From: Candidatus Woesearchaeota archaeon | GTDB lineage: Archaea > Nanobdellota > Nanobdellia > SCGC-AAA011-G17 > JACPNG01 | Direction of reading: 5' to 3' | Length of the DNA stretch: 61,841 nt | Assembly: GCA_016185605.1 (NCBI GenBank) | Contig: JACPNG010000011.1 | Location: forward strand, 1 to 61,841 | Shown: piece after piece, positions 2,358-43,407 of the stretch | Layout of the letters: every line of letters starts with the position of its first letter | Numbering within the stretch: the first letter of the stretch is position 1 | Program-made: the position numbers and the translations under genes | Notes under the pieces: generated by a model | Seen by the model: the letters and a program-made list of their open reading frames with translations, nothing else | What the model was told of the DNA's origin: nothing | Database searches by the model: none

Positions 2358-2834
2358 GAGCTATTGTAGGATGCTCTTTAAATTTTTTTAAGATTGCGAC
2401 CATAATTTCCGTTGATCCTGCGGAAGACCGCTGCTATTGGGATTGGACTAAGACATGCAAGTCATCTCGCAAGAGAGGCGAAAGGCTCAGTAACACGTCG
2501 ATAATCTGCCCTTAGGTTCAGGATAACCTCGCGAAAGTGAGGATAATACTGGATAGGTGATTGAGGCTGGAATGCGCTTTCACTTAAAGGCAACGCCTAA
2601 GGATGAGTCGGCGGCTGATTAGGTAGTTGGTGAGGTAAAGGCTCACCAAGCCTGTGATCAGTAGGGGGGATGAGAGTCCTAACCTCGAGAAGGACACTTA
2701 GATAAGGGTCCTAGCCCTAAGGGGTGCAGCAGTCGCGAAACCTTTACAATGCACGAAAGTGTGATAAGGTAATCCCAAGTGCTTACTTTTTAAGTAGGCT
2801 TTTGTCAAGTGTAAGAAGCTTGGAGAATAAGTGG

Positions 2835-2873
<39 letters not shown>

Positions 2874-3245
2874 CCACAAGTGGGGGTCAGATTTATTTGG
2901 TCTAAAGCATTCGTAGCAGATTATGTAAGTCTTCTGTGAAATCGTTGGGCTTAACCTAGCGGCTTGCGGAAGATACTGCATAGTTAGAGACCGGGAGGAG
3001 CTAGGAGTATTCCTTGGGAAGCGGTAAAATGCTTTAATCCTTGGAGGACTACCAGTGGCGAAGGCGCCTAGCTAGAACGGGTCTGACTGTGAGGGATGAA
3101 AGCTGGGGGAGCGAACTGGATTAGATACCCAAGTAGTCCCAGCTGTAAACGCTGTGAATTATGTGTTGCATAATTCAAGTAATTATGCAGTGCCGTAGTG
3201 AAGACATTAAATTCACCACCTGGGAAGTACGGTCGCAAGGCTGAA

Positions 3246-3287
3246 ATGATAGAAGTTTAGGACGTTTTAAGGCTTCTATCACACTAG
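3246..3287 (+). other. BHB microintron, 16S intron 1 (42 nt, E. coli ~908)
   Basis: Inner helix TGATAGAAG/CTTCTATCA (9 bp), central GCTG/CACT (3 of 4 pairs), bulges AAA and AGA, outer AAG/CTT. Splicing restores GGCTGAA|ACTTAAAGG. Confidence 0.82.
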
Positions 3288-3298
3288 ACTTAAAGGAA

Positions 3299-4000
3299 AG
3301 ATGAGATAGTCGATAGCTCTAGATTTGTATACTGCAGAATATACCTAACGGACACAGCGGACAGGAACGCACGTGAGACTTATAAACAATAATAACATTT
3401 AGATTACAAAGATGGTTAGTAATGACTTATGTTATTTGTTTGGAGCATTAAGAGATGCTAATCTTGATATAAGGCCAAATAAAAATTATGAGATTAAATT
3501 TGGTCAAAAGGACGAGAGATGGCTCTTTTGCATTTCAGATATTATATTTAAATTATATAATAAAAGATTTAATCCATCAAATAACATGTTAAGATTATGC
3601 AACAAAAAGATAGTAAATGATTTAGTGAAGATTTCCGGGATAAAATCGCCACAATCAGAATGGTCCACTCCACTTATTGTAAAGGATTTTACATTTGAAA
3701 ATATTCAATCATATATAAGTGGATTTTTTGATGCAGAGGGAGGTTTGCCTATTAATCCAGAAACAGCTAAACAAAAGTATATATCATTTGATCAGAAGAA
3801 TAAGTCTTCACTATCATTTATTAGGGATAAACTAATTGAATTGGATTTTATCCCAACTAACTTAACATATACTGGAAATGTATGGCAATTTAGATTAACA
3901 AGAAAAAAAGACATAATAAAATTCTGTGATTATATAAAATCTAGACATCCTTCAAAATCTTTAAGATTAAGAAGGTTGATATTGGCTATTTCTCCCTGAG
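3299..4000 (+). other. BHB-type intron, 16S intron 2 (702 nt, E. coli ~919) encoding LAGLIDADG protein
   Basis: Interrupts conserved GGAA|TTGGCGGGG; weaker BHB (central AAGG/CCTG 3 of 4, bulges AAA/AGT); contains ORF 3412-3999. Confidence 0.85.
3412..3999 (+). CDS. LAGLIDADG homing endonuclease (two-motif)
   Basis: 'YLFGALRDANLD' and 'YISGFFDAEGG'; inside 16S intron 2; TATA-like CTTATAAAC ~27 nt upstream. Confidence 0.9.
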   Translation: MVSNDLCYLFGALRDANLDIRPNKNYEIKFGQKDERWLFCISDIIFKLYNKRFNPSNNMLRLCNKKIVNDLVKISGIKSPQSEWSTPLIVKDFTFENIQSYISGFFDAEGGLPINPETAKQKYISFDQKNKSSLSFIRDKLIELDFIPTNLTYTGNVWQFRLTRKKDIIKFCDYIKSRHPSKSLRLRRLILAISP

Positions 4001-4288
4001 TTGGCGGGGGCGCACTACAAGGGGTGCGGCGTGCGGTTCAATTCAATTCCACACGGAGAATCTCACCAGCAGCGACGGCAGGATGAAGGTCAGATTAAAG
4101 GTTTTACCTGACGAGCCGAGAGATGTTGCATGGCCGCCGTCAGTTCGTGCCGTAAGGTGTACTGTTAAGTCAGTTAACGAACAAGACCTATATCCACAGT
4201 TGCAACCGAGTTCTACGGAATGATCGGGCACACTGTGGAGACTGCCCGCGTAAGTGGGAGGAAGGTGTAGGCAACGGTAGGTCTGTAT

Positions 4289-4463
4289 ACGCTAGCGAGT
4301 TTTGAACCGCAATAACCATATATTTATTATGCTATAAAACAATAAGTGAAAACAATGATGACTAAAGAAGAACAAGATCAAATTGAAAAATTTTTAAGTA
4401 AATTTAATTTTCATCATCCAAAATGGTTATTGCTGCGTTCTATAAGAATTCCTAGCGGCAGAG
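4289..4463 (+). other. BHB intron, 16S intron 3 (175 nt, E. coli ~1205)
   Basis: Inner CGCTAG/CTAGCG, central CTGT/GCAG (4/4 with wobble), bulges ATA/AGG; splicing gives GGTCTGTAT|GGCTCGAATCTGCTGGGCTACACGCG, the expected 16S sequence. Confidence 0.88.
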
Positions 4464-4621
4464 GGCTCGAATCTGCTGGGCTACACGCGCGCAACAATGG
4501 CAGGAACAATGGGATGCAACTCTGAAAAGAGAAGCCAACCCTCTAAATCCTGTCTTAGTTCAGATCGAGGATTGTAACTCATCCTCGTGACGCCGGAATC
4601 CCTAGTAATCGGGTATTAGCA

Positions 4622-4659
4622 TAGCTAAGGATAGCAAAATCTATGTCTTAGCTCTAAAT
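4622..4659 (+). other. BHB microintron, 16S intron 4 (38 nt, E. coli ~1355)
   Basis: Inner AGCTAAG/CTTAGCT, central TTAG/CTAA (4/4), bulges CAT/ATG, outer GGGTA/TGCCC; mature TCGGGTATTAGCA|GTGCCCGG has the length of the E. coli hairpin TCGTGGATCAGAATGCCACGG. Confidence 0.88.
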
Positions 4660-4848
4660 GTGCCCGGTGAATATGTCAATGTGCCTTGCACACACCGCCC
4701 GTCATCCCAATCGAGCAGGGTTTAGGTGAGGCTTAGCTTTAACTAAGACGAACCTAGGCTCAGTGAGAAGGGGCAAGTCGTCACAAGGTAACAGTAGGGG
4801 AACCTGCTGTTGGATCACCTCCTTTAATTTACATTCTACAAGCTTAAA

Positions 4849-7244: not shown

Positions 7245-7319
7245 ATAATTAATATAGTTAATTAACTTAAAAACATTTTTATATTGATAATACTTTTATC
7301 ATAAGAAAAAGTGGTGATA

Positions 7320-9101
7320 ATGTCTAAAAAAAGAAAAAATATAGATTTTAATTATAATCTTAGAGTTTATCTAGATTTTTTAAAAAAGTATAAATGGATG
7401 CTTATTTTTGTTCTTATAATTGTATTTCTAGTTGAATTTAGCTATATAATTAATAATTATCTGTTTAAAGTTGTCATAGATGATGGAACTAAGTTCGTTA
7501 ATAAAAATTTAGATCATAATGAATATGTCAAAATCTTAATTATATTAGTTATAATTTATTTTTTAAATTTGGCTATTAGAAATTTTCTCAAATTTATTAG
7601 AATGCATTTATTAAACATACTTGAAATGAGAGTAATACTAGACTTAAAAAGAAAATTCTTTAATCATATTACTCATCTTTCTTATGGATTTCATACAACT
7701 CATAAAACTGGCTCGTTAATTTCTAGATTGGTTAGAGGAGGTAATGCAACTGAACGTATGACTGATGTCATTGTACTTAATATTGCCCCATTAATATCTC
7801 AATCTATAGTAGTTATAAGTTCATTACTATTTTTTGATTTGACTTCATCATTTATTGTAGCTATTACAATATTATTATTTGTAGTATATAGTATATTTAT
7901 TCAAAATAAACAAAAACTCTATAACCTTATTAGAAATGAAAAGGAAGATAACGAAAAAGCCTATATCAGCAATGTTATGACTAATATAGATTCTATAAAA
8001 TATTTTGGTAAAGAGAAATATATTAAAAATAGATTTAAGCGTATTAGTTATATAACCGGAAAGGCACTACTTAAATTCTGGAATTATTTTGTTTGGTTAG
8101 ACTTAGGACAATCAATAATATTAGGCATAGGAATTTTCTTCTTAGTTTATTTTCCAATGCTAAAATTCTTAAATGGAAATTTAGAAATTGGATCATTAGT
8201 CTTTATTTATACTGTATTTGGAAATCTTTTTGGACCTCTTCATGGTTTTGTTGGGGGAATAAGAAACTATTATAGCTCAATGGGCGACTTCCAGGACTTA
8301 TTTCAATACGGCAAGGTAGAAAATGAGATTAAAGATAAACCCGATGCAAAAAAACTAAAAATTAAAAATGGTGAGGTTGAATTTAAAGACATAAGTTTTA
8401 ATTATAACAAAAGAAAGATTTTTGATGGTTTTAATTTAAAGATAAATAAAAATCAAAAAGTAGCTTTAATAGGGCACTCGGGAGCCGGTAAATCCACTTT
8501 AGTTAAATTATTATATCATTTTTATAATTTAGATAAGGGAGAAATATTAATTGACAGTAAAAATATAAATGAATTTAAACAGGAGTCTCTGAGATCTGAG
8601 TTGAGCATAGTGCCCCAAGAATGTGTATTATTTGATGATACAATATATAATAATATAGCATTTTCCAATCCAAATGCAAACAAAAAGGATATTATTAATG
8701 CTATAAAGTTCGCACAACTTGATAAAATAATAAAAGAATTTCCAGATAAAGAAAATACAATAGTTGGTGAGAGGGGTGTTAGACTATCAGTTGGTGAAAA
8801 ACAAAGGGTTTCTATTGCAAGAGCTATTTTAGCTAATAAAAAAATATTAGTTTTGGATGAGGCTACTTCTTCCCTAGATTCGGAAACAGAACATAATATT
8901 CAAGTTGCATTGAAAAAATTGATGAAAGATAGAACTTCATTAATTATAGCACATAGATTATCTACTATAATGAATGCTGATAAGATAGTTGTAATGAAGA
9001 ATGGAAAAATTGTTCAAACTGGAAATCATAAAGAATTAATTAAACTTCCTGGAGTATATAAAAAACTATGGAATCTTCAGAAAGGAGGATATATAAAATA
9101 A
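7320..9101 (+). CDS. ABC transporter, fused permease and ATP-binding protein
   Basis: TM N-terminus; 'IGHSGAGKSTLVKLLY', 'LSVGEKQRVSIARAIL', 'LVLDEATSSLDSET', 'IIAHRLST'. Confidence 0.95.
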   Translation: MSKKRKNIDFNYNLRVYLDFLKKYKWMLIFVLIIVFLVEFSYIINNYLFKVVIDDGTKFVNKNLDHNEYVKILIILVIIYFLNLAIRNFLKFIRMHLLNILEMRVILDLKRKFFNHITHLSYGFHTTHKTGSLISRLVRGGNATERMTDVIVLNIAPLISQSIVVISSLLFFDLTSSFIVAITILLFVVYSIFIQNKQKLYNLIRNEKEDNEKAYISNVMTNIDSIKYFGKEKYIKNRFKRISYITGKALLKFWNYFVWLDLGQSIILGIGIFFLVYFPMLKFLNGNLEIGSLVFIYTVFGNLFGPLHGFVGGIRNYYSSMGDFQDLFQYGKVENEIKDKPDAKKLKIKNGEVEFKDISFNYNKRKIFDGFNLKINKNQKVALIGHSGAGKSTLVKLLYHFYNLDKGEILIDSKNINEFKQESLRSELSIVPQECVLFDDTIYNNIAFSNPNANKKDIINAIKFAQLDKIIKEFPDKENTIVGERGVRLSVGEKQRVSIARAILANKKILVLDEATSSLDSETEHNIQVALKKLMKDRTSLIIAHRLSTIMNADKIVVMKNGKIVQTGNHKELIKLPGVYKKLWNLQKGGYIK

Positions 9102-14409: not shown

Positions 14410-14481
14410 GGGCTCGTAGCTCAGCGGTAGAGCACCTCCCTTGCAAGGAGGGGGTCTCGGGTTCAAATCCCGACGAGTCCA
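14410..14481 (+). tRNA. tRNA-Ala (anticodon TGC)
   Basis: GGGCTCGTAGCTCAGCGGTAGAGCACCTCCCTTGCAAGGAGGGGGTCTCGGGTTCAAATCCCGACGAGTCCA; cloverleaf with G3.U70. Confidence 0.96.
14471..14481 (+). repeat. att site copy (tRNA side)
   Basis: CGACGAGTCCA. Confidence 0.8.
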
Positions 14482-14546
14482 AGCCTATTATTTGTTCTAT
14501 GCTCACACCACTTAAAACATATAAACCGAATAGGAGTGTGAATAAT

Positions 14547-15884
14547 ATGGCAGAAGATGATATATATGGCAACAAATCCACATATGAGAAATCAAAGAAT
14601 AATATCAAAGACTTTCTCAATAAACCAAAAGAATCAGAGAATAGAGTAGGAAGATTAAGGAAGTATTATTGTAAGAATCCAGATAATATAAAACACTTTG
14701 AGAAGCTGTTTAATAGATTGGAAGCAAAGGACAATAGCTATATACACAGGAATAGAATGATCAGCATATTAAAATTAATATGTCATGCAACAGATAAGGA
14801 ATTATCAAAAATACAAGATAGAGAAGATATAGACAAGATTGTTGCTTTTGCTCACACCACACAAAAGACTATAGACTCAAAAAGGGATTTTATAAAGCAC
14901 ATAAAGTTAATCTGGAAGATATTATTTCCAGAGAAAGATGAGAAAGGAAGAATAGATGAAGCAATAACTCCTTATGTCATAAGGCATTTGACTACAAAAT
15001 TTGACAAGAGCAAAGAGAAGAGAAAAAAAGATATCCTAGAGCCAGAGGAAGTAGAGCAGATAATTGGTTATTTCTCCAAAGACCCTAGAATACAGGCATG
15101 GTTATCTTTGATTTATTTCAGCTATGCAAGACCGCAGGAATTAGCTTATATTAAGATAAGGGATTGTGAAATTTATGACAACTATGCAAAGATATGGATA
15201 AGTGAGCATGGAAAAGAAGGGGTTGGATTTTTAGAGGTAATAGACAACTTTTATTATATCTCAAAATGGTTTAATATACACCAATATAAGAAAGATAAGA
15301 ATAGCTTTTTATTCTATTCTAATGGAGACAAAAAAAGACCATTAACACCTTTTAATGTTAATAAAAAACTAAGGGAGGCAGTTAAGAGATTAGGCATTAA
15401 TAAGAGGATTACAAATTATAGCTTTAAGAGAAGCGGAATAACAACAGACGCAATAAGGGGAAATTCTCCAACAGAGATAATGCACAGGGCTAGATGGTCT
15501 TCTGTAGATCAATTAAGGACTTATGATTATTCGGCTCATGAGGATACATTCAAGCGTCAGTTAGCCATTAAGGGAAAAATAACAGACGGGAAATATAAAG
15601 ACTTAATGCCAAAGACAAAGAAATGTAGTTTTTGTGATTTTGAGAATGGAATAGCTGAAGAGATATGCAATAATAAATCATGCGGTAGACCACTAAATAG
15701 AGAGAAAATAAAACAGCAAATTATCAATTTAGAAAGAATAGAACGAGCTAGTAAAATCTTAGATAGGACTATAGAAAAAGTTAAAGATAAATCACCAGAT
15801 TATGTTGTAGATAAGGAGAAGGAGCAAATAAGAGAAACAATAAGAGAAATGCTAGAATCAGGAGAATTAAAGAATTTAGAATGA
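14547..15884 (+). CDS. tyrosine recombinase / integrase
   Basis: 'YFSYARPQELAYIKIRD', 'NYSFKRSGITTDAIRGNSPTEIMHRARWSSVDQLRTYDY', C-terminal CxxC...CxxxxC zinc motif. Start set at ATG 14547 from a TATA-like CATATAAA upstream. Confidence 0.9.
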   Translation: MAEDDIYGNKSTYEKSKNNIKDFLNKPKESENRVGRLRKYYCKNPDNIKHFEKLFNRLEAKDNSYIHRNRMISILKLICHATDKELSKIQDREDIDKIVAFAHTTQKTIDSKRDFIKHIKLIWKILFPEKDEKGRIDEAITPYVIRHLTTKFDKSKEKRKKDILEPEEVEQIIGYFSKDPRIQAWLSLIYFSYARPQELAYIKIRDCEIYDNYAKIWISEHGKEGVGFLEVIDNFYYISKWFNIHQYKKDKNSFLFYSNGDKKRPLTPFNVNKKLREAVKRLGINKRITNYSFKRSGITTDAIRGNSPTEIMHRARWSSVDQLRTYDYSAHEDTFKRQLAIKGKITDGKYKDLMPKTKKCSFCDFENGIAEEICNNKSCGRPLNREKIKQQIINLERIERASKILDRTIEKVKDKSPDYVVDKEKEQIRETIREMLESGELKNLE

Positions 15885-15969: not shown

Positions 15970-18222
15970 ATGGGACACGAAAATATTCCTATTGGAAGGT
16001 TTATAGATGATATTAAAAGAGGAGAATATGTTATACCTCATTTCCAAAGGGATTTTGATTGGCACCCAAATATGGTTGCGGATTTATTCGAATCAATTAT
16101 TTATAATAGGTATGCTGGAACTATTTTATTATGGAATTTAGAAAATATTGAAAGAGAATTAAAAATGTGGGATCCTTTGTGGGGTGCTGAAAAAGGAGAA
16201 AAGCCGACTAAAGCTATATTGGATGGACAACAGAGATTATCTTCAATTTATTATGCTCTATGTTCACCTAAAAAACCGTTTCCTAATAAAACAGTGTTTT
16301 ATTACTTTTATATAGACTTGGATCAACTTTTTTCTGGAAATGAAGATGAATCTATAGTATATGATTACTCTAAATCACCACGAAAATTAGAATATTTTAA
16401 AAGAGAGAAGGAATGGTTTATAAAAAATGGTAAATTCCCTATTTGTTTGTTATCTGATAAAGAATTTTTAGATAGTGAAGAGTACCAAGGTTGGCTAAAT
16501 AAATATATTGATTCTCGAGAAGAATTATGTTTGACTGCTTTATCTGTTGCTAAAAAAATAGAAAGTATTTTGAGTTATAATTTTTTAACAGAAACCTTGG
16601 AAAAGAAAGAAGTGAAAGAAATTTGTACTATATTTGCAAATATAAATAGCAAAGGATTAAAATTAGATATTTTTGATTTAATGAATGCTTTTTTGTATCC
16701 AAAAGGGATAAAATTAAGAAAAGATTGGGATGAATTAGAAAATGATGAATTAAAAAATATAGACCAACAAATGAAAGTCTATGTATTAAAATTAATTTCT
16801 TTATATAAGCAAAGATATTGTTCTTCTAAATTTTTGTATAATCTTATACCTGGTTCTACAATAACAGATAAAAAAGGAAATAAAACCATTTTAGTTAAAG
16901 ATGATATTGAATTTGAAAACTTATGGAATAATAGTATAAAATATTCAGAGAAAGCTAGAATTAGGATTATGAGTAGTGGAATTAATGATCTTGGAGCTAT
17001 TAAAAATACATTTATCCCAAATACCACAATCATACCTGTTTTAGGGGCTTTGCTTCTAAACTATAAAATTTCAGATTTAAAAAACAAAATTTCTGAAAAT
17101 GAATTTTGGGGTAAAATAAATAAATGGTATTGGTGTGCAGTATTATCTGGGGATTATAGTGGTTCTTCAGATTCTATAATGTCTAAAGATTATAGAGATA
17201 TTATAGAATGGCTCAAAGATGATTCAAAAATTCCAGAACGTATCTCAAAAATTAATAGTATTTTTATAGAAGAGTCACTGAATCTTAGAAAAGTTAAAAA
17301 TACAGGCAGTGCTCAATATTGTGCTATATTAAGTTTGTTAGCAATTAAATCAGCAAGAGATTTATTTACTGGAAGGATTTTAGGAAACTATCCCATAAAT
17401 GAAATCAATGATCACCATATATTTCCTACAAAATGTGGATTAAAAATACCTTCAGATGAAATAGATTGTATATTAAATAGAACATTATTATGGCAAGAAA
17501 CCAATAATAAAATAAAAAATAAAAAACCTAGCGAGTATTATAAAGAAATACTTAAAGAAATTAAAAGTGAAAAAGAAGTTGAAAGCTTAATGAATACTCA
17601 TCTTATTTCCCAATCTGCATTGAGATATTTAATTAATAATGATTTCAATGGATTTGTTGAAGAAAGAAATAAAACTATAAAAGAAGAAATTAAAAAAACT
17701 ATAGGGATTAAAAAAAATGAATTAGACTATTCTTTAATATCTCCAGATAAAGAATATGACAACGAAATAAATTATGTTAGTTATATAGAAAATTGCGAGG
17801 ATTATATTTTTATTATAGACCCCTATATTAAAGAAAATTCTTTCAGATTAATAAGAAAAGGTCTTGTTAATAATAAAAGTATTAAAAAAATTAAGATTAT
17901 AACTAAAGCTGATGCTTTAGAAGAAGATTTCAAAGATTCCTTTAAAAAATTTTCTAAACAGATGAATAAAGAAGGAATAAATATAGAAATTAGAGTTTTG
18001 GTTGATCCAAAAATAAAAAATAAAATACATGATAGATACCTTATAACAAAGAATAAGACATATAATTTTGTAAGTGCTGATACTGTAAGCAGGGGGCAAT
18101 TAAGCCATATAAAGGAAGTTGGCGATATTACCCCTAAATTTAATGAATTTTGGGAAAGTGGATTAGAATTATTAAGTAATTGGAGTATAATAAAAAGTAA
18201 AAATATTAGGAGAGAAAAATGA
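15970..18222 (+). CDS. DUF262/DUF1524 (GmrSD-like) protein with C-terminal PLD-like domain
   Basis: 'IPHFQRDFDW', 'ILDGQQRLSSIYYAL', 'NDHHIFPTKC', and C-terminal 'YIFIIDPYIKENSF...KIHDRYLITKNKTYN'. Confidence 0.75.
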   Translation: MGHENIPIGRFIDDIKRGEYVIPHFQRDFDWHPNMVADLFESIIYNRYAGTILLWNLENIERELKMWDPLWGAEKGEKPTKAILDGQQRLSSIYYALCSPKKPFPNKTVFYYFYIDLDQLFSGNEDESIVYDYSKSPRKLEYFKREKEWFIKNGKFPICLLSDKEFLDSEEYQGWLNKYIDSREELCLTALSVAKKIESILSYNFLTETLEKKEVKEICTIFANINSKGLKLDIFDLMNAFLYPKGIKLRKDWDELENDELKNIDQQMKVYVLKLISLYKQRYCSSKFLYNLIPGSTITDKKGNKTILVKDDIEFENLWNNSIKYSEKARIRIMSSGINDLGAIKNTFIPNTTIIPVLGALLLNYKISDLKNKISENEFWGKINKWYWCAVLSGDYSGSSDSIMSKDYRDIIEWLKDDSKIPERISKINSIFIEESLNLRKVKNTGSAQYCAILSLLAIKSARDLFTGRILGNYPINEINDHHIFPTKCGLKIPSDEIDCILNRTLLWQETNNKIKNKKPSEYYKEILKEIKSEKEVESLMNTHLISQSALRYLINNDFNGFVEERNKTIKEEIKKTIGIKKNELDYSLISPDKEYDNEINYVSYIENCEDYIFIIDPYIKENSFRLIRKGLVNNKSIKKIKIITKADALEEDFKDSFKKFSKQMNKEGINIEIRVLVDPKIKNKIHDRYLITKNKTYNFVSADTVSRGQLSHIKEVGDITPKFNEFWESGLELLSNWSIIKSKNIRREK

Positions 18223-18283: not shown

Positions 18284-18874
18284 ATGAAATGTAAAAAATG
18301 TGGCAATGAACTAACAAAAGATGATTTATATTGTTCTGAGTGTGGTCATAAAGTAGACCATGATGAAAAACATAAAGAAAAGATTTCTTTCATTTCTCTT
18401 TTTACATATAAAAGAACGGCAGTCATAATTAGTATACTTTTTATAGTGGCATTCCTATATTTTATTTATCCAACACTTAAAACAAATGAAACAATCCCCC
18501 CAACAACCTCTGATAATTTAAAAAAAGAAGATGTAAAAGTAGAAAATGAGGTTAATGAACTTAATGATGAAAAAAATTATCTTAAAGATAAGATAAATGT
18601 CCGTGAAAATAGTATATTTAATAAAAATTGTGAGAATGGAGTTTGTGAGAATGAATGTTCGGCAGTAGTATCAAATGATGGAGATAATAAAGTAAGACTT
18701 TCTATGGAGATATCTTTTAGAAGTGATGATAAATTACGTTTTGGTGGAATTGAAGATGTAGCAGTTTTAGAACCATATGATCTTAAAAAAGTTTCATTTA
18801 GCTATAAACAAGATGAGCTTTTGAATATAGATAATTGTGAAATGAAAAAGAGTTTTGTTAAATTTACGAAATGA
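18284..18874 (+). CDS. zinc-ribbon membrane protein with extracytoplasmic domain
   Basis: 'MKCKKCGNELTKDDLYCSECGHKV' then one TM segment. Confidence 0.7.
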   Translation: MKCKKCGNELTKDDLYCSECGHKVDHDEKHKEKISFISLFTYKRTAVIISILFIVAFLYFIYPTLKTNETIPPTTSDNLKKEDVKVENEVNELNDEKNYLKDKINVRENSIFNKNCENGVCENECSAVVSNDGDNKVRLSMEISFRSDDKLRFGGIEDVAVLEPYDLKKVSFSYKQDELLNIDNCEMKKSFVKFTK

Positions 18875-19581
18875 AATACTGTAATAAATGTGGAACAAAA
18901 GTAAAGAAAGATGAGAAATTCTGTCATAAGTGTGGTAATAAGATTTCTAAAGAAATTAAACATGAAGAACATAAAAAAGAAGATGAATGTCTAAAATGTC
19001 ATTCAGAAATACAAAAACATGCCACTTTCTGTGGAGAATGTGGGCATAAACTTTCAGAATCAAAGACTAAAAAGAAGCTTTCTGAGAAAGTAGAACCTTG
19101 GCATGTTCCATGGATAATTATTGGAGCATTGATAATAATAGCTGGTATTATTTTATTACCTACAAAAGTAGTTACTTATCAAGTAGATGTAGATTATATA
19201 GATACTGAAACATATACAGAACAAGTACCTTATCAAGATGTTGAAGAGTATATTGAAAGAGTTCCTTATGAGACTACAGAAACATATGTAGAAAGCATTC
19301 CTTATGAAGAACAAGAACCTTATACAACTATTGAATGTGCATTTGCAGGATTATTTTGCAAAGAAGTTACTAAATACAGAACTGTAACTAAATATAGAGA
19401 TACAACTAAAACAAAACCAGTTACAAAATATAGGGATGAGACTAAATATAAGACTGTAACTAAGTATAGGACTGAAGAAAGGGAAAGAGATGTAAAGAAA
19501 ACAAGAACAGAAACAAGAAGAAAAGAAGTAAATTGGGTTTTTGGTTTTGATGCTATTATAAAATTTAGAAAATTAAATTAA
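18871..19581 (+). CDS. double zinc-ribbon membrane protein with charged Tyr-rich repeat tail
   Basis: 'YCNKCGTKVKKDEKFCHKCG', second CxxC pair, TM segment, then acidic V-P-Y repeats followed by basic TKYR repeats; ATGA overlap with preceding ORF. Confidence 0.7.
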   Translation: MKYCNKCGTKVKKDEKFCHKCGNKISKEIKHEEHKKEDECLKCHSEIQKHATFCGECGHKLSESKTKKKLSEKVEPWHVPWIIIGALIIIAGIILLPTKVVTYQVDVDYIDTETYTEQVPYQDVEEYIERVPYETTETYVESIPYEEQEPYTTIECAFAGLFCKEVTKYRTVTKYRDTTKTKPVTKYRDETKYKTVTKYRTEERERDVKKTRTETRRKEVNWVFGFDAIIKFRKLN

Positions 19582-19582
19582 A

Positions 19583-20599
19583 ATGAAATATTGTACTTCT
19601 TGTGGCAAGGAAATAAAAGGTAATGAAAAGTTTTGTATTCATTGTGGAGAAAGTTTACAAGGAACAAAACATAAAACAAAAATACAAATTGCCCAAATAG
19701 TATTTATACTAATAATTTTTATTGGTATCATAAGCTTCTCAGTCGTATTTCTTAAACAAAAAAATCAACAAGAATCTGAAGATATTATTCTACCAACTAA
19801 ATTATCTGATAGATTAATAAGAGCAATAGTACCAGAATCAAAAGAGTCTGATAATGGTGTTAAGAAAGAAGGTTACGCTTTTGAAATAGAAAAACCCTTT
19901 TATGAAGGAAATTATGAATATGATGAAAGGACAGTAGATTTTAGAATGGTATGTGAGAGACCTTGTCCTGTTCCTAGAAATATTTTAGATCAAGAATTTG
20001 TAGCAATTAGCTATGCGGTCTCTACTTTGAGAGGTCTTACACAAAGTGATTTTGAAGAACATATTCTACCTTTTGAGGTTCATGCTTCAGAAGATTCTAT
20101 TTGTCCTTTGCTTCCAACCGCTCTTGCTTATATGAGCACTTTTGTTGATAATAATGGTGTTGAAAGAGGTAAATTATGCTTTTTCTTTGAAGAACTGAAT
20201 TATAATAGGGACAAACTACCTTATTCTACCTCAATACATGAAGTTACCCATTTACTTGAATCTGGTAAAATAGAACATAATAGTGTTATTTGGGAAGGAT
20301 TATCTGAAATGATGGAATCTTTCTTTTTGAAAGGAAACGAGAGAAATAGTTTTTGTTGGCAAGGTAATGCATGGTATAAAGATATAGCACAAAATAATCA
20401 CGATCCTCATTGGGTTGGTGGAGCTTTATTTTTCGAATTATGTAATCAATATGGTTTTGATTATAATAGTTTACCTACTCTATTTGAAGAGATAGACAAG
20501 AGAGGGGAAGTTAGTATAAAAGAATTTGTTAATATAATAAATAATATTGTTGGAAGAGATACATCACCTTTATTTAGAAATGCTGGAGTTGATGTTTAG
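19583..20599 (+). CDS. zinc-ribbon membrane protein with extracytoplasmic metallopeptidase-like domain
   Basis: 'YCTSCGKEIKGNEKFCIHCG', TM segment, 'STSIHEVTHLLESG...WEGLSEMMESFF' (HExxH plus downstream Glu). Confidence 0.65.
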   Translation: MKYCTSCGKEIKGNEKFCIHCGESLQGTKHKTKIQIAQIVFILIIFIGIISFSVVFLKQKNQQESEDIILPTKLSDRLIRAIVPESKESDNGVKKEGYAFEIEKPFYEGNYEYDERTVDFRMVCERPCPVPRNILDQEFVAISYAVSTLRGLTQSDFEEHILPFEVHASEDSICPLLPTALAYMSTFVDNNGVERGKLCFFFEELNYNRDKLPYSTSIHEVTHLLESGKIEHNSVIWEGLSEMMESFFLKGNERNSFCWQGNAWYKDIAQNNHDPHWVGGALFFELCNQYGFDYNSLPTLFEEIDKRGEVSIKEFVNIINNIVGRDTSPLFRNAGVDV

Positions 20600-20601
20600 A
20601 A

Positions 20602-21453
20602 ATGGGAGAAAATATTCTAATAAAAGGTTTAAAATTACTGAGAGAAAATCCAGAAGGATTAATAAAAAAAGAATTAGAAAATGAACTTGGAAAAGACAAA
20701 TTCTATACAGAATTTTTATTTTTTGCATTAATGGGTAAACAAGAGGATCATTTAATAATACTAAATAATAAAGAGAAGTGGATTCTTACTAAAAGTGGTT
20801 TTGATTATTTAAGACAAGTAGAATTGGAGGAAAATCAAATAGAGGTAATAAATGTACAGAAAGAACAAAAAGAGATTTTATCCAAACAAGTTGAAGTATC
20901 AAAAGAACAAACTAAAATACAATCTGGTCAAAAGAGGTTTATGGGACTGCTTATTATAGTAACATTAATTTTAGGAGTATTATCTTATAATATTCAAATA
21001 AAACAAACAGAGATATTAGAGCAAACTAGCGTACCTAATCGTGCAGAATTGTTTATTAGAGGAGTAAGAACAAGTGGAGAAAATATCCCCACATATCATT
21101 ATTCAGCTTTTTCTGATCCAAATATGGGAGATATCGATATTTATATAGCTAATGTAGGTAGAATACCAAGCGGGGTGGTAAATTTAATAGGATGGGAGAA
21201 TGAAAATTGGTTAGATTCTAGTGTATTGAAAGAAGGATATCCAACTCATTTTTTAAATATAGAAAGTGGTGGACTAAATGTAACTGAATTAAAGATAAAA
21301 AATATATCTGATGTTCCTTTAGGAGTTAGTGATTTGATATTAAAATATGATTGTAATTTTTGTGAACCACTAACAAATTTTATTAATATAACTATTTGCG
21401 TTTATGAATCAAGCTATGGAGAATGTCAGAAACTCATAAATGAGATAAAATGA
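20602..21453 (+). CDS. winged-helix-like, coiled-coil membrane protein
   Basis: N-terminal wHTH-like region, long charged helix, TM 'FMGLLIIVTLILGVLSYNI', extracytoplasmic C-terminus. Confidence 0.55.
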   Translation: MGENILIKGLKLLRENPEGLIKKELENELGKDKFYTEFLFFALMGKQEDHLIILNNKEKWILTKSGFDYLRQVELEENQIEVINVQKEQKEILSKQVEVSKEQTKIQSGQKRFMGLLIIVTLILGVLSYNIQIKQTEILEQTSVPNRAELFIRGVRTSGENIPTYHYSAFSDPNMGDIDIYIANVGRIPSGVVNLIGWENENWLDSSVLKEGYPTHFLNIESGGLNVTELKIKNISDVPLGVSDLILKYDCNFCEPLTNFINITICVYESSYGECQKLINEIK

Positions 21454-21893
21454 TAATAGCTGAATCTGAAGAATCTAAAAGTATCAGAGGAATAATTTTG
21501 GCTGATTGCTCTGAATTAGATAAACTTCTCTCAAATTTTCTCTCAAATTACTTTAGTAAGGAAGATAAAAAGAAAGAATTATTTAATTTAGTTTTTAATA
21601 CAGATATGCTTAATTTATACAATAAAATTAAGATATTTAAGAGAGTAATTAATACTGATTTCTATTCTGATTATGATAAATTAATTGAAGCATTAATTTG
21701 GCTTAATAAGACAAGAAACCATCTTGCTCATTGGATTTGGGATCACGAAAAAAGTCAAGATAAAGATAAATTTTCTGTTCTGAAAAATCCTAGTGATGGT
21801 AAACAAATTCTCTTAGTTGATAATAATTTATTAAAAGAACATGAGAAAAGATTTATGGATATTTTAATGTTCTTTGATGTTTATTATGCTTAA
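21450..21893 (+). CDS. candidate HEPN-domain protein
   Basis: Helical, 'LNKTRNHLAHWIWD' contains RNxxxH; ATGA overlap with upstream ORF. Confidence 0.45.
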   Translation: MIIAESEESKSIRGIILADCSELDKLLSNFLSNYFSKEDKKKELFNLVFNTDMLNLYNKIKIFKRVINTDFYSDYDKLIEALIWLNKTRNHLAHWIWDHEKSQDKDKFSVLKNPSDGKQILLVDNNLLKEHEKRFMDILMFFDVYYA

Positions 21894-21895
21894 TT

Positions 21896-22099
21896 CTATC
21901 TCTTTCTCCAAAAGAAACCAGCCTTAGATTTTAGTTTTTCTATTTTATTTTGAGATTCCAATTCCATTAAAATTCTATACAAAGCATGCCAATTTATAAT
22001 CTTTTTAACTTTAGATTCTAATTCTTTTAACACTTCATTAGTACTTTTAATTTGATCTTTTTTTATTATATCCAATAATTCCTTATCATATTTACTCAT
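21896..22099 (-). CDS. small winged-helix-like protein
   Basis: 67 aa 'LLDIIKKDQIKSTNEVLKELESKVKKIINWHALYRILMELESQNKIEKLK'. Confidence 0.5.
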   Translation of the reverse strand: MSKYDKELLDIIKKDQIKSTNEVLKELESKVKKIINWHALYRILMELESQNKIEKLKSKAGFFWRKR

Positions 22100-22227: not shown

Positions 22228-22896
22228 ATGAAATTTAAGATACTATTAGGCATATTTTTTATAATTATTCTAATTAATATATACAGTAGTGAAGCTCAAA
22301 TATTAAGATTAATTGGAGAACCCAAAATATTAGTTTGTCAAGAAGATATAGAATTAGTGTCTTTAGCATATAAAGAAGTTAAATTCGTTGTTCAAAATCA
22401 AGCAGAAAATAATGCTAATTTTAATGCTTTCATAGTATGTGAAGACGATAGTCATCAAGAAATTTTTCCAAGCAGAATACAATTTAAGAGTGACGAAATT
22501 GAGACAATCCAAGGAAGAGTTAGTTTTGGTACTCAAGAAGATAAGTCTGTATCTTGTATATTTACTGTTCAAGATTTAAATAATCCAGATAATAAAGATA
22601 GTTGTAATTTTAATGTTAATGTTAAACCTAGACCCATAGATTGTGATATTGGAGATACTATATGTAGAGACAATGATTTATATGCCTGTGAAAGTGGAAC
22701 TAAATTTGTCAAGATTAAAACATGTGAATTAGGATGTGAAGAAACTGGAAAAGTGGGTGTTGCAAAATGTAAGGGAGAACAATTAGTCACTAATAAAAGT
22801 TATCAAAAGAAAGAATCTAATTATATAATACCTTCAATAATTATTGCATTTGCTATCATCATAGGAGCTTGGATAATTAAAAGAAAAAGAAAATGA
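22228..22896 (+). CDS. secreted/membrane-anchored protein
   Basis: N-terminal signal sequence, cysteine-rich segment, C-terminal TM 'IIPSIIIAFAIIIGAWIIKRKRK'. Confidence 0.6.
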   Translation: MKFKILLGIFFIIILINIYSSEAQILRLIGEPKILVCQEDIELVSLAYKEVKFVVQNQAENNANFNAFIVCEDDSHQEIFPSRIQFKSDEIETIQGRVSFGTQEDKSVSCIFTVQDLNNPDNKDSCNFNVNVKPRPIDCDIGDTICRDNDLYACESGTKFVKIKTCELGCEETGKVGVAKCKGEQLVTNKSYQKKESNYIIPSIIIAFAIIIGAWIIKRKRK

Positions 22897-23255
22897 AAGT
22901 TGATTTCAAAATATTGTTAATCTTAATCTCTTTAGTTGTATTAGCTGGTTGTACCAATCAAAATTCAAATTATCCAGTTGCTAATTCAGAAAATTGTAAA
23001 GATTACTGTCCTACTAAAAATTTCCCTGCTTGGACTGAATTTTCAGAAGAACCAAAAAGCGATTTTTTTGATTTACATATTCCAATATCAGATTGGAATG
23101 AACATCCTCAAGTTTTAACGAGTGACTGTTCGAAGGAATTGCGAAAACGAACAGGAATCACTCAAACAGAAGGTTGTGGTATATGTAGGATAGGAGATGT
23201 TACTGTAACTGATGATGCTACTATTGGTTGTGAATGTTACTATGGCAGATGTTAA
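22893..23255 (+). CDS. lipoprotein-like secreted protein
   Basis: 'ILLILISLVVLAGCTNQ' lipobox; cysteine-rich. Confidence 0.6.
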   Translation: MKVDFKILLILISLVVLAGCTNQNSNYPVANSENCKDYCPTKNFPAWTEFSEEPKSDFFDLHIPISDWNEHPQVLTSDCSKELRKRTGITQTEGCGICRIGDVTVTDDATIGCECYYGRC

Positions 23256-23280
23256 AATGAATGGAGGAAATGAATAAAAA

Positions 23281-23721
23281 ATGAATAAAATTATTAGATA
23301 TTCAATTACTACTCTAATAATTATAGGTTTTCTTATTGGTTTTTTTATATTTCTAAAGAGAGGACAAGTTCCAGACATAATAATACCTTATAATATTGGT
23401 GTATTATTTACTCAATTTGGTTCTACTCCAGACAGTTTTTGGAGAGACCACAAGTTAGTATCTACTACATTTAGAGTTGATAGTGGATTAGGAGATTACA
23501 ATGGGGGTAAACATAAAGATATAAGTGCTAGACAAACCTGTAATGACGAGTTTGATAAAAGAAATTATCCCGTTGAGTATTACTCTGATGGAAATAATAA
23601 TTACCCTATAAGGTCTTGTTGGATTGAAGGAATAGGCTCAAGAGAATTTGAATGTGAAGGAAATACTTGTCATACAAATGCTTATGTTGATTGTGATTGT
23701 TTTTATGCAGTTAGGAACTAA
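23281..23721 (+). CDS. membrane-anchored cysteine-rich protein
   Basis: N-terminal TM; C-terminal 'VDCDCFY' resembles 'IGCECYY' of the preceding ORF. Confidence 0.55.
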   Translation: MNKIIRYSITTLIIIGFLIGFFIFLKRGQVPDIIIPYNIGVLFTQFGSTPDSFWRDHKLVSTTFRVDSGLGDYNGGKHKDISARQTCNDEFDKRNYPVEYYSDGNNNYPIRSCWIEGIGSREFECEGNTCHTNAYVDCDCFYAVRN

Positions 23722-38506: not shown

Positions 38507-38615
38507 AATTTCACCCCAATAATCTTTATTAATATTACCACCAATAATAATAGTAATATTTATATAGTTTAAGTGGTTGTATTACTATAGGCATAAAACT
38601 TATAGGGCTAGTTCT

Positions 38616-38626
38616 CGACGAGTCCA
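38616..38626 (+). repeat. att site copy (distal end)
   Basis: CGACGAGTCCA identical to the tRNA-Ala 3' end. Confidence 0.8.
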
Positions 38627-38646
38627 TATTTTAATCAAGATTCTTA

Positions 38647-39182
38647 TGGAAGATTACAAAGAAGATAATATAGAAGAGATTCCCCGGAGCAAAATAAAAA
38701 GATATCTTGTATTAATTCTGGCTGTAATTTTAATTTTCTTGGTTTCAACTTATTATGTTATATTTTACGGCGTTGATGATGTACTATCTGGATTAATCCA
38801 AAGCTATAAAATAGATGATAAATTAACATTGAGTTTTAAAAACAATAAAATTATTTTTTCCAAAGAAGTTTATGATGAATTAAATAACATTTATAATGAA
38901 AATAAAGAACTGGAATTTAAAGCTTGTTTAATGGGCTATGTAAAAAATAATATCTATAATATTGATAATATCATAATTCCAAAAACTTTTTCTCAAAAAT
39001 ATAATGAAGTTGTCTCAGAAAGGTGCGACAATGAAACTCTAATAGACTTGCATAGCCATCCATTCAGGAGATGCTTGGCTTCTTTTCAGGATATAATAAA
39101 TTTCAGAATATTAAAGATTACAAATGAAAATATCCTATTGGCTGTGATGTGCGAGAAGGACAGATTTTATATTTATGGATGA
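38647..39182 (+). CDS. membrane-anchored JAB/MPN (JAMM)-like protein
   Basis: N-terminal TM; 'LIDLHSHPFRRCLASFQD' fits HxHP(x)nSxxD. Start set downstream of the att site. Confidence 0.65.
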
Positions 39183-39311: not shown

Positions 39312-39476
39312 GCTCAAATCTGAATTGAATTTGGGTGAAGGGCGCTAATTTTGACGAGACTTTTCAAGAAAAGTTTCTTTAGCGTCGTGCATAGGTAAGG
39401 CATCCTACGCAATTAGGTGGATGACTTGGCTCAAAACAGCGATGAAGGACATGGCAAGCTGTGATAAGCCTAGGGT

Positions 39477-39552
39477 ACTGCTGTGAAGTGTATTGGAGTG
39501 GAGAAATATTTATATTCTTTGAAATTAAAAAGACACTTTACAGCAGCCTAAG
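39477..39552 (+). other. BHB microintron, 23S intron 1 (76 nt)
   Basis: Inner CTGCTGTGAAGTGT/ACACTTTACAGCAG, central TAGG/CCTA, bulges GTA/AGA, outer GCC/GGC; mature CCTAGGGT|AGGCGCACGCAGCC. Confidence 0.9.
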
Positions 39553-39817
39553 AGGCGCACGCAGCCCTTGAACCTAGGATTTCTGAATGGGACTTCCTGA
39601 ATATTCCGAAAGGAAGGCCAACGCGGTGAATTGAAACGTCTTAGTAACCGCAGGAAAAGAAATTAACAAAGATTCCGTTAGTAGCAGCGAGCGAAAACGG
39701 AGGAGAGCAAACTGAATTTCTTACAGTAATGTAAGATAGATGTGGTGTTGTAAGACTCGCTTTTAGTCCTTTTTAGTTGCCTAAATTCCTCTGGAAAGGG
39801 GAACCATAGAGGGTGAT

Positions 39818-40504
39818 ATAGAGCCAGTCAAAAATCTTTTTTAACTCAAAAAACATAGTAGATAGGTGATAGAAAAACAAAACTATCTTGCTTATCTTTT
39901 AGGGGTTTTGAGGGATGGACATATTAGAATAGACAAAAATAAAAAGTATGTTCATTACACAATGGAGTTTTGCAGTAACGACAAGGTATGGTTAGATAAT
40001 ATCGCAAATATTATTGAAATATTAGCTAACAAAAGACCAAGTATTAGACCATTTAAGAAGATATATTGGAGACTTAGGTTGAGGGATAAAAACTTTATAT
40101 TAAAACTAAAAGAATTATCTCAGTTTAAGGTTCCACAGTCAACATGGTTTACACCTCCATTTATAATGAAGTCAGATAAAGAAACTAAGAAATGGTATAT
40201 AAGTGGTTTCTTTGATGCAGAAGGGTGCATTGGGAAAGGTAACTACAAATATTATAATTTTGATATTTATCAATCTTGGTTTCACGACAATAACTGTCCT
40301 CCATTAGATGATATAAAAGAGATGTTATTAGATTTCAATATTAAATCATCTAAGATAAAATTAAGAAAAAATAGAAATAATCTTTTTGTTTTAAGAATAA
40401 CAAATAAAGAGTCTATAATTAATTTTTGTAATAATTTTCAGTTGTTAAATTCAAAGAAGAGTGAATTAATAAAAAAGATTGTAATTTGACTGGTTCTACA
40501 CCAT
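39818..40504 (+). other. BHB intron, 23S intron 2 (687 nt) with LAGLIDADG ORF
   Basis: Inner TAGAGCCAGTC/GACTGGTTCTA, central GGTG/CACC, bulges ATA/ATA; mature GGTGAT|AGTCCCGT. Confidence 0.9.
39866..40489 (+). CDS. LAGLIDADG homing endonuclease (two-motif, GTG start)
   Basis: 'YLLGVLRDGHI' and 'YISGFFDAEGC'. Confidence 0.9.
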   Translation: MIEKQNYLAYLLGVLRDGHIRIDKNKKYVHYTMEFCSNDKVWLDNIANIIEILANKRPSIRPFKKIYWRLRLRDKNFILKLKELSQFKVPQSTWFTPPFIMKSDKETKKWYISGFFDAEGCIGKGNYKYYNFDIYQSWFHDNNCPPLDDIKEMLLDFNIKSSKIKLRKNRNNLFVLRITNKESIINFCNNFQLLNSKKSELIKKIVI

Positions 40505-41282
40505 AGTCCCGTGGGGTAACATGAAAAGGATGTGTGAGTATCTTGAGTAGTGCTTCTTGGATATGAAGCATCAATCTGGGAGTCATTAACTTCTAACTCT
40601 AAATATGTTTTGAGTCCGATAGCGCATAGTATAGTGATAAAACGTTGAAAAGTACCCTTAACAGGGTGTGAAAAGAGCCTGAAACCTAATTGTTACAGTG
40701 TGATACTGCTCTTCGGAGTTGTATCGTATGTTTTGAATAACAGGCCAGGGAGTTTATCTAAGTGGCAAGAATAATCTAACAAGAGTATTCATAGAGAAAT
40801 CAAATTCCCGCAGTTCACGAGGGGAAGGGTTTTAACTAGCCCAAGTCACTTGGATATTACCAGAACGCGGACGATCTAATCTTGAGCAAGGTGAAGCGGT
40901 CTTAACAGACCGTGGAGGCCTGAAGGGATTCTGTGTGCATGCGTCCCTCTGACTTGAGATTAGGGGTGAAAAGCCAATCGAGTCCGCTGATAGCTGGTTC
41001 CTGCCGAAATATGCCGCAGTATAGCCTCGATGGAGGTAACTAAGATTGTAGAGCTACGGATTTGAGGGTAAGGGGTAGAAATACTTCGCTTTCTTGTCCA
41101 ACTCCAAATGTCTTAGCGCCGTAGAAGTCGGGAAACAGGGGAGCGCGGTAAACGTGTTTTCCAATAGGGGAACAGCCCTCTCTAGAGTTAAGGTCCCAAA
41201 ATGCTAGTTAAGTGTTAAAGGGTGAAAGGTGTATAATACCAAAGACAGCTGGGAGGTTGGCTTAGAAGCAGCCATCCTTTAA

Positions 41283-41326
41283 ACTTTTTAGGAAAAAGTT
41301 TAATCAAAAATCCTAAAGAGAAAGAG
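41283..41326 (+). other. BHB microintron, 23S intron 3 (44 nt, GTPase-associated centre)
   Basis: Inner CTTTTTAGGA/TCCTAAAGAG, central CTTT/AAAG, bulges AAA/AGA; mature CATCCTTTAA|AGAAAGCGTAACAGCTCACC. Confidence 0.9.
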
Positions 41327-41997
41327 AGAAAGCGTAACAGCTCACCAGTCAAGGTATTATGCCCTGAAAATGGACGGGGCTAAATTAGCTACCGATACTC
41401 TAGACTCCAGAAATGGATGTGGTAGGCAGGCGTTCTGTTAGGGCAGAAGTTTTTTCGTAAGAGGAAATTGACCTAATAGAAATGAGAATCCTGGCGGTAG
41501 TAGGATCAATACAGAGTGAGAATCTCTGATATCGTAAGGGTAAGGGTTTCTTAGCAATATAGATTAGCTAAGAGTAAGTCGATCCTAACTGGATTCCTAA
41601 TTGGACATCCGGGAATGGGAAACAGGTTAAGATTCCTGTACTATCTAAGATTTGCTCAGATTACGCTTTGGGATAAGCTGACAATCCTCGTCTAGATTGC
41701 CCTTGAAAATAATTTTGTGGAGTATCGTAATGATGAGAAACAAAATAAGTTTAAGGGGCTAGCAATAGTTCAGCTGATTCCTAGAGCCCGTGAAAAAAAT
41801 CTGAGGCCATACTTAGATAATCGTACCCAGAACCAGCACTGGTGCCCTAGCTGAGAAGGCTAAGATATGAGAGAATAATCTAACTAAGGGAAATCGGCAA
41901 ATTAGGTGCGTACCTTCGGTATAAGCACTCCCTGCGATTGTTAGTCAAGCTAGCGATTACAGGGTTCAATAACAAGGGAGGTCCGTCTGTTTAACAA

Positions 41998-42563
41998 ATG
42001 GAAATAAGAGAAATGTTTAAATACAACGTTGGCTGAATTTTAGCTAATGGATCAGTATTTAACAGGACTATTTGTGGGAGATGGGTCAATTCATCTTGGT
42101 AAAAATTGGAAGTACCAAGTTTGGATAGACCAACATAACAGAAATGCTGACATTCTGAAAAAAGCTGCTGAAATTCTTCAAAAAGAAGGATTCAATGTTT
42201 GCGTATATAAAATTCCTGATAATAAAATTAGGGTATATGTATGCGCAAAAAGGCTTTTCACAGAATTTTCTGAAGTAAAGAAAAATCCTGTAAATCATTT
42301 TCTTAATTTGAATGAAAACGATAAAAAAGAATTTGTTGCAGGATTTTTTGATGCAGAAGGAACAGTTACAGACAGATTTGTAATCTACAATGGAAATATA
42401 ACACTTCTACAAGCAATAGAAAAATTCCTTAAAAAACTTGGAATTGTATGTTATATATACAGATTCGGAAAGATTTTTGGAATTCAAATTTATCAGAAAA
42501 AATCTGTAGAAAAATTCGTTAACCACATTAAATGTATTAAAATATCTCGTATTTCCGGTTAAG
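41998..42563 (+). other. BHB intron, 23S intron 4 (566 nt) with LAGLIDADG ORF
   Basis: Inner TGGAAATA/TATTTCCG, central TAAC/GTTA, bulges AAA/AGA, outer TGTT/AACG; mature CTGTTTAACAA|AAACGCCGC. Confidence 0.92.
42047..42562 (+). CDS. LAGLIDADG homing endonuclease (two-motif, divergent from the other three)
   Basis: 'YLTGLFVGDGSI' and 'FVAGFFDAEGT'; TATA-like TTTAAATAC ~23-31 nt upstream. Confidence 0.9.
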   Translation: MDQYLTGLFVGDGSIHLGKNWKYQVWIDQHNRNADILKKAAEILQKEGFNVCVYKIPDNKIRVYVCAKRLFTEFSEVKKNPVNHFLNLNENDKKEFVAGFFDAEGTVTDRFVIYNGNITLLQAIEKFLKKLGIVCYIYRFGKIFGIQIYQKKSVEKFVNHIKCIKISRISG

Positions 42564-42834
42564 AAACGCCGCTATCTGCTAGCCAGCAATGGTTTGTATA
42601 GATAGCCACGTCTGCCCAGTGCCAGTACTTCAAACTCCTTTTCAAGGGAGCTAAGAGCTGGTAAACGGCGGGAATAACTATAATTCTCTTAAGGTAGCGA
42701 AATGCCTTGCCGTTTGATTGGCGGCCTGCATGAATGGCGTAACGAGATCTCCACTGTCCCTAGTTAGAGTCTCCCGAATACATCCTTCTGGTGTAAAGAC
42801 CAGAGATGCCTAGTGGGACGTAAAGACCCCGTAG

Positions 42835-42866
42835 ATGGATTTATATTAAATATATCTCCAACGGAA
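42835..42866 (+). other. BHB microintron, 23S intron 5 (32 nt)
   Basis: Central CCGT/ACGG, bulges AGA/AAA, inner TGGATTTATA/TATATCTCCA with 2 mismatches; mature GACCCCGTAG|AACTTTACTGTAGC. Confidence 0.78.
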
Positions 42867-43090
42867 AACTTTACTGTAGCATGTTGCTGCAGTGTGGAAT
42901 TTATTGTGCAGTATAGGTAGGAGTCGCTATGGCCTAGTCGCCAGATTAGGTCTAGACAAAATTGAGATACTACCCTTTAGATTCTATACTGCTCACCTAT
43001 GGGACACCGGCATGCAGACAGTTTGGCTGGGGCGGCACCCTGCTGAAAGGATATCAGCAGGGCCCAAAGGTAAGCTCATCCAGTTTAGAA

Positions 43091-43136
43091 AGAAACTTTT
43101 AGGAAAAGTTTCATCAAAATCCTAAGTTTCATAAAG
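43091..43136 (+). other. BHB-like microintron, 23S intron 6 (46 nt; boundary +/-2 nt)
   Basis: Inner GAAACTT..AGGA/TCCTAAGTTTC, central TTAG/ATAA (3 of 4), bulges AAA/AGA; mature TTTAGAA|ATCTGG. Similar to 23S intron 3. Confidence 0.75.
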
Positions 43137-43304
43137 ATCTGGAGTAGAGCGCAAGAGCAAAAGCTTGCTTGACTGTGTCTTCCTCAGTAAGAGACGCAGG
43201 GGCGAAAGCCTGGTCTAGCGAACCTCTATACCTCTTTAATGGGGGTTAGAGATTACAGAAAAGCTATCTCGGGGATAATTGAGTTGTAGCGCCTGAGAGC
43301 TCAA

Positions 43305-43350
43305 AGAGCTTTTTCTTAAAAAGAAAAACCTCGGAAAAAGAAACGAGTAT
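43305..43350 (+). other. microintron, 23S intron 7 (46 nt, helix 89 loop; weak BHB)
   Basis: Extra sequence between GAGAGCTCAA and ATCGACGGCGC; central GCTC/GAGT, bulges AAA/ATA, inner helix poor. Confidence 0.65.
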
Positions 43351-43407
43351 ATCGACGGCGCTGCTTGCTACTTCGATGTCGGCTCTTCCTATCCTGGGCG
43401 TGCAGAA

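Follow-up and report, generated by a model that had tools for sequence, protein, structure and literature searches.

To our knowledge, little has been established about how surface proteins are processed and remodeled in DPANN archaea and methanogens. LapG/LapD/LapA is described in PMC3032545 and PMC4359373 as a surface-proteolysis system. Membrane-associated HEPN proteins carry transmembrane (TM) segments, in one group together with Zn ribbons, and are proposed to be stimulus-dependent RNases in section 15 of PMC3710099. The window analyzed here (the whole stretch of DNA, 61,841 nucleotides) belongs to a genome of 857 kb, and the named relatives of its proteins are Woesearchaeota. It holds an operon of five genes (ORF1-ORF5) which, with a probability of roughly 0.6, is the cargo of an integrated mobile element and joins two evolutionarily separable modules, a stalk-protease unit (ORF2-ORF3) and ORF4-ORF5. 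As far as we searched, the ORF2-ORF3 stalk-peptidase pair is an undescribed two-gene unit, and our search of the open-access literature returned no description of such a pair.

The probable element and its operon

An AT-rich stretch of ~24 kb in the window is a probable element integrated at tRNA-Ala, with a tentative boundary and a short repeat. An integrase gene lies 17 nt from the tRNA gene, and the last 11 nt of the latter, CGACGAGTCCA, recur exactly at 38616-38626, the combination of integrase and direct repeat of the tRNA end that characterizes tRNA-integrated elements. The landmarks of the element around the operon are:

14410..14481, + strand: tRNA-Ala(TGC), probable attachment gene (ARAGORN/Rfam)
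14499..15884, + strand: tyrosine integrase (PF00589 8.9e-11; phrog integrase; homologues in L104, 35%, and in the G051 element)
15970..18222, + strand: GmrSD_N / HEC-05 type protein, upstream neighbor of the operon, with a GmrSD_N domain (PF03235 1.1e-28; PADLOC HEC-05 6.9e-28)
21896..22099, - strand: 67-aa wHTH-like protein (a protein of the G051 element, encoded near a stalk gene, is 63% identical)
38616..38626, + strand: candidate right attachment repeat of the tRNA-Ala 3' end (exact 11-mer, expected 4e-5 in the island)

Further genes of the element encode a D5-like primase-helicase, an ATPase, RmuC and a serine recombinase. The related G051 element, which is 11.4 kb long and bounded by perfect 139-bp repeats, has the integrase and the 67-aa wHTH gene in common with the window, and its stalk gene lies 2.3 kb from that wHTH gene.

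Several other genes in and around these elements were noted along the way. At the candidate right end, 38577-39182 encodes a TM protein with a JAMM-like HSHP...S..D motif, and the attachment repeat falls within this called ORF. Three more small surface/lipoprotein-like genes with Cys-rich C-termini (22228-23721) adjoin the operon, and L042 (3786-4376) and L016 (4436-5125) have lipoproteins like these close to ORF4-like or HEPN genes. The 16S and 23S rRNA genes (2405-4823 and 39393-43590) are unlinked, with the mobile element between them. Intron-like insertions interrupt both and contain homing-endonuclease-like ORFs (3412-3999, 39866-40489, 42047-42562); an additional ORF of this kind lies at 43626-44273. 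In the G051 element, a 213-aa protein with NGHGD and SRSC motifs (L074 2437-3078) adjoins the wHTH gene; it has no Pfam match, and a caspase/CHAT-like identity was dropped, as Pfam gave it no support.

The five ORFs of the operon are nearly gapless, their junctions being a 4-nt overlap (ATGA), 1 nt, 2 nt and a 4-nt overlap (ATGA):

18284..18874, + strand: ORF1, zinc ribbon, TM and small outer domain (PF13240 1.9e-6; one TM, 39-57)
18871..19581, + strand: ORF2, two zinc ribbons, TM and stalk made of acidic arm, tip, basic arm and NWVFGF (PF13240 5.2e-12; family alignment; arms in 24/24 relatives)
19583..20599, + strand: ORF3, zinc ribbon, TM and putative HExxH peptidase domain (PF13240 5.6e-7)
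20602..21453, + strand: ORF4, wHTH-like N-terminus, TM and outer domain with conserved Cys (relatives in L036, L037, L042)
21450..21893, + strand: ORF5, predicted HEPN protein (AlphaFold2 model and VIA-align; five-sequence alignment)

A sequence-only reading of this DNA had proposed five same-strand, back-to-back ORFs, and its coordinates, junctions (-4, +1, +2 and -4 nt) and coding frames were borne out, each ORF scoring as coding in no frame but the annotated one (codon log-odds of 0.29-0.42 per codon vs. <=0.11 in other frames). It had also given ORF1-ORF3 a common double-CxxC ribbon and a TM helix. The zinc-ribbon Pfam model PF13240 is indeed matched above cut-off by all three, and a single strong hydrophobic segment is present in each of ORF1-ORF4 (none in ORF5), but the ribbons are not uniform: ORF2 has two, and ORF1 and ORF3 have one four-Cys ribbon each. 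A TATA-like box 35 nt 5' of ORF1 is consistent with ORF1 as the start of the transcript. The scan of IMG/VR gave ORF1 one weak relative on a viral contig (28%, zinc-ribbon/TM region), and no relatives when run with the ORF2 and ORF3 alignments, ORF4 or the HEPN protein. Elsewhere, zinc ribbon-TM genes lie directly 5' of two stalk-peptidase pairs (L117 4994-5902, L114 1190-1678), in a position that resembles that of ORF1, without clear homology.

ORF4 and the predicted HEPN protein ORF5

Structure prediction agreed with the earlier suggestion of a HEPN fold for 21450-21893. An AlphaFold2 model of ORF5, with four relatives in the alignment (pLDDT 77, pTM 0.72), returned HEPN or MtlR structures or Roquin in the top 11 rows of VIA-align (Z 7.0-8.4, next Z 5.2), the best matches being AF_0298 (Z 8.4), HepT (7.8), MtlR (7.4) and HepS (7.2), on a scale where values below about 13 can reflect an arrangement common in helical bundles. 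The Rx4-6H motif of the HEPN superfamily is intact:

21714..21731, + strand: RNHLAH, HEPN catalytic Rx4H motif, residues 89-94 (R89, A93 and H94 invariant in the five-sequence alignment)

Given the uniform identity of the top structural rows together with the motif, HEPN is the best reading of ORF5, a prediction of moderate strength that falls short of proof. Plain Foldseek with the same model gave no significant match (the insignificant ones were MarR-like only), a PDB sequence search with ORF5 gave nothing significant, and a plasmid tblastn with the HEPN protein gave nothing; the HEPN alignment is too divergent for a pattern scan. ORF5 belongs to an unnamed DPANN family without a Pfam match, is probably soluble and cytosolic, and is probably an RNase. 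Its HEPN relatives in four other genomes (L002, L014, L015, L016) sit in unrelated surroundings, without ORF1-4. One of these, L016, from a DPANN genome, has two HEPN-motif genes (7270-7809 and 8236-8778) with one small gene (7802-8239) between them.

ORF4 had been read as a membrane protein with a wHTH-like N-terminus. The TM segment stood, and the wHTH assignment is weak: a homologue in L042 matches a winged-helix model at 9.3e-6, just under cut-off, and ORF4 of the window has no match in the same profile search. Its outer domain is probably beta-rich, and a PDB sequence search gave nothing significant. Relatives of ORF4 occur without ORF2/ORF3: the one in L036 adjoins pyrG, for example, and the one in L042 adjoins a transglutaminase-like TM gene, in surroundings that include a Rep_1 gene. 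After an ORF4-like gene in G011 comes a transglutaminase-like gene with a TM segment, and a HEPN-motif protein is encoded 2.3 kb upstream. The relative in L037 lies in a region with integrases, and 7.5 kb away on the same contig (G087) is a HEPN-family gene (6.8e-12) that adjoins an integrase related to the window's and is the only HEPN-profile match among the fetched loci not recruited by the HEPN search. This G087 region is possibly mobile, with no att repeats detected in it. Among the loci examined, direct ORF4-HEPN adjacency is found in this window only, and the two may occur together on mobile DNA.

A toxin-antitoxin or abortive-infection pair, in which a HEPN RNase toxin would be restrained by the membrane wHTH protein, is conceivable here, though on balance somewhat unlikely. 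The intact Rx4H motif and predicted HEPN fold, structural matches that include the HepT toxin and prophage HepS, the GmrSD/HEC-05 neighbor and the G087 region all point in this direction, and they are countered by the HEPN relatives without an ORF4 neighbor, by the G087 region without detected att repeats, and by the missing MNT gene or other known antitoxin partner: the neighbors of ORF5 are ORF4 and the 67-aa wHTH-like protein, not an MNT gene as in HepT/MntA. Such a pair would be compatible with the two-module reading and would sharpen its second half. In that preferred reading, ORF4-ORF5 are most likely a separate regulator/RNase pair, possibly defensive: ORF4 would span the membrane and carry its wHTH-like domain in the cytoplasm, its translation being coupled to that of the soluble HEPN protein, and the two would more likely serve the defense or stability of the element than the stalk-protease unit. 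A defense or exclusion role, also raised by the sequence-only reading, is possible for ORF4 and the HEPN protein in view of the GmrSD-type neighbor and of the ORF4-like and HEPN-family genes in G087, with the two genes being element cargo at most.

The stalk and its partner peptidases

The stalk of ORF2 runs from an acidic hexad-repeat arm over a tip to a basic hexad-repeat arm and a C-terminal NW[IVL]xxF motif:

19177..19338, + strand: acidic hexad arm, Y every 6 residues, net charge -15 (0/300 shuffles as good)
19372..19527, + strand: basic hexad arm, KYR-type, period 6
19528..19548, + strand: VNWVFGF motif, restricted to the paired subfamily and missing from unpaired stalks

All 24 of 24 stalk proteins have an acidic first arm (Tyr every six residues) and a basic second arm (K-Y/T-R every six), and the lengths of the two arms correlate (Spearman rho 0.64, p 8e-4, over 24 proteins that are not independent rows, with no phylogenetic correction). 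Cys residues are frequent on either side of the tip, and L076-L078 have one directly ahead of the first arm and another directly behind the second, which would fit antiparallel pairing of the arms. Judged by these repeats, the acidic and basic arms probably pair into a two-stranded stalk, which could reach roughly 18 nm by simple arithmetic, were each arm to form a beta strand some 54 residues long. The tip varies with the peptidase: most transglutaminase-type stalks have six Cys there, and the HExxH type has either a short loop or an insert of ~90 residues. TcaA-like NCBIfam models matched 4/13 stalks weakly, and a PDB sequence search gave nothing significant. Bdellovibrio-group proteins (L116, L118, L119) have like acidic/basic hexad arms, a tip with 10+ Cys and an extra C-terminal domain, without a neighboring peptidase of the HExxH or transglutaminase-like type; the opposite-charge hexad-repeat stalk, present also in Bdellovibrio, may be an unrecognized structural element.

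A genome scan with the ORF2 family gave 17 loci. The very next gene encodes a membrane-anchored peptidase in every testable archaeal locus with an NW-type stalk (12/12, window included), across Woesearchaeota/Nanoarchaeota, Methanoregula/Methanomicrobiales and GoM-Arc1. This count includes L117, where the peptidase ORF has its N-terminus outside the called frame, and leaves out L113, whose contig stops before the next gene can be judged. In 8 archaeal and 3 bacterial stalk homologues that lack the NW motif, no peptidase of these types is a neighbor. That ORF1-ORF5 are unrelated cargo packed together by element compactness, with the stalk-protease pair an accidental passenger, is unlikely: islands do gather unrelated genes, and the relative of ORF1 is a weak one at the zinc-ribbon/TM level in a single viral contig, but ORF2-ORF3 are kept together in 12/12 loci across archaeal phyla, and in the related G051 element, too, a stalk gene lies close to the 67-aa wHTH gene.

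Two peptidase types stand beside the stalk. The HExxH…EGLSE type occurs in three loci, namely the window, L105 and L106/L034, the latter two from Woesearchaeota; L105 is cut by the contig end inside the protease gene, so that ORF4 and HEPN genes could lie just downstream there, and the third member lies in two pieces, on contigs C85 and C42 of the genome G082, which we joined by inference. An HExxH protease-like outer domain in ORF3 had been proposed from the letters, and its motif was borne out:

20237..20251, + strand: HEVTH (H219-H223), invariant in all three homologues
20294..20308, + strand: EGLSE (238-242), putative third zinc ligand, invariant in all three homologues

The resulting HEVTH-x14-EGLSE is a gluzincin-like signature, with the HExxH and downstream Glu of the MA clan (invariant, n=3). 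The domain is 64% identical to that of L034 and 53-57% to that of L105, has no Pfam match and no significant PDB sequence match, and is, on its motifs, a putative zinc metallopeptidase. A phage tblastn with the domain gave nothing, and a weak G260 match to the ORF3 C-terminus was rejected, as the site has no intact gene.

The transglutaminase-like cysteine type occurs in nine loci (L107, L108, L109, L110, L111, L112, L114, L115, L117) from Woesearchaeota, Nanoarchaeota, Methanoregula/Methanomicrobiales and GoM-Arc1. These partners are built of a TM segment, a Gln-rich linker, a Ca-binding-like repeat and a transglutaminase-like domain; the catalytic Cys-His-acid residues (C232, H258, E284) are invariant (L107-L117), and Transglut_core (PF01841) is matched by 4/8, above cut-off in L112. 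The stalk tree divides the two peptidase types with 100/100 support, which is compatible with a single peptidase exchange. Two unrelated peptidases beside the same stalk suggest surface proteolysis as the shared function, with hydrolysis kept rather than a specific fold. Various transglutaminase-fold enzymes are not proteases, which speaks against this. The fold includes cross-linking enzymes, which favors a partner that cross-links or otherwise modifies surface proteins, with another hydrolytic role for ORF3, the shared function being maturation and not turnover; we consider this quite unlikely, since the position next to the stalk can also be taken by a putative metallopeptidase, and the chemistry common to both would then be peptide-bond hydrolysis.

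Two proposed modules compared with described systems

The two-module reading builds on the observed gene pair, TM segments, motifs, repeats and peptidase replacement. In the first module, ORF2 would be held by its TM segment with the zinc ribbons inside the cell, while outside the acidic arm would run out, turn at the Cys-containing tip and return as the basic arm. ORF3, anchored like ORF2, would carry the putative zinc metallopeptidase domain, and the unit, perhaps with help from ORF1, would likely cleave proteins at or just beyond the archaeal surface, the stalk acting as scaffold, regulator or substrate of the protease.

The sequence-only reading had suggested that the five proteins could be a surface-sensing complex coupled to an RNase. 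In a concrete form of this idea, surface proteolysis by ORF3 would be sensed by ORF4, whose cytoplasmic domain would control the HEPN RNase. Of this proposal the HEPN prediction stood and the five-gene unit did not. The near-gapless junctions, including the ATGA overlap of ORF4 and ORF5, the G011 gene order and the membrane-coupled HEPN proteins with Zn ribbons or sensors proposed in bacteria (PMC3710099) favor it, but the families occur separately in other genomes, the very finding that the sequence-only reading had named as refuting it, profile searches of hundreds of genomes gave no second ORF1-5 locus, and the recurring ORF2-ORF3 pair has no ORF4/HEPN with it in any locus with readable flanks, which makes a five-gene system improbable. 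Least probable is one transmembrane pathway, with stalk-protease proteolysis read by ORF4 and the HEPN RNase released inside the cell, which if true would be an archaeal regulated-proteolysis-to-RNase switch on a mobile element.

Compared with described systems, the stalks of the two-module reading resemble TcaA-like proteins in their N-terminal zinc ribbon, single TM and outer domain, whereas the outer domains themselves are unrelated; we know of no peptidase gene paired with TcaA. ORF5 shares a predicted helical bundle, an intact Rx4H motif and a small soluble form with HEPN MtlR/DUF4145-like and HepT/HepS proteins (PMC3710099; PDB 3brj, 6kcr, 7ae6, 9oij, 2hsb), but has only 9-16% identity to them in structural alignment and no directly adjacent MNT, mannitol or R-M partner. 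In the membrane-associated proteins of section 15 of PMC3710099 the HEPN domain is fused to a TM protein, whereas ORF5 is separate and predicted to be soluble. As with LapG/LapD/LapA, in the accounts cited at the outset, a transglutaminase-like cysteine protease and a membrane partner would act on cell-surface proteins. The partner here, in all loci read, is the stalk and not a LapD-like c-di-GMP receptor, the protease is itself membrane-anchored, the enzyme of the window is a putative metallopeptidase, and no adhesin gene is adjacent. In the way it would work, ORF2-ORF3 may be likened to LapG-type surface proteolysis. As a two-gene unit common to Woesearchaeota and Methanomicrobia, it offers a testable surface-proteolysis system, with either a putative metallopeptidase or a transglutaminase-like peptidase as the partner of one kind of stalk.
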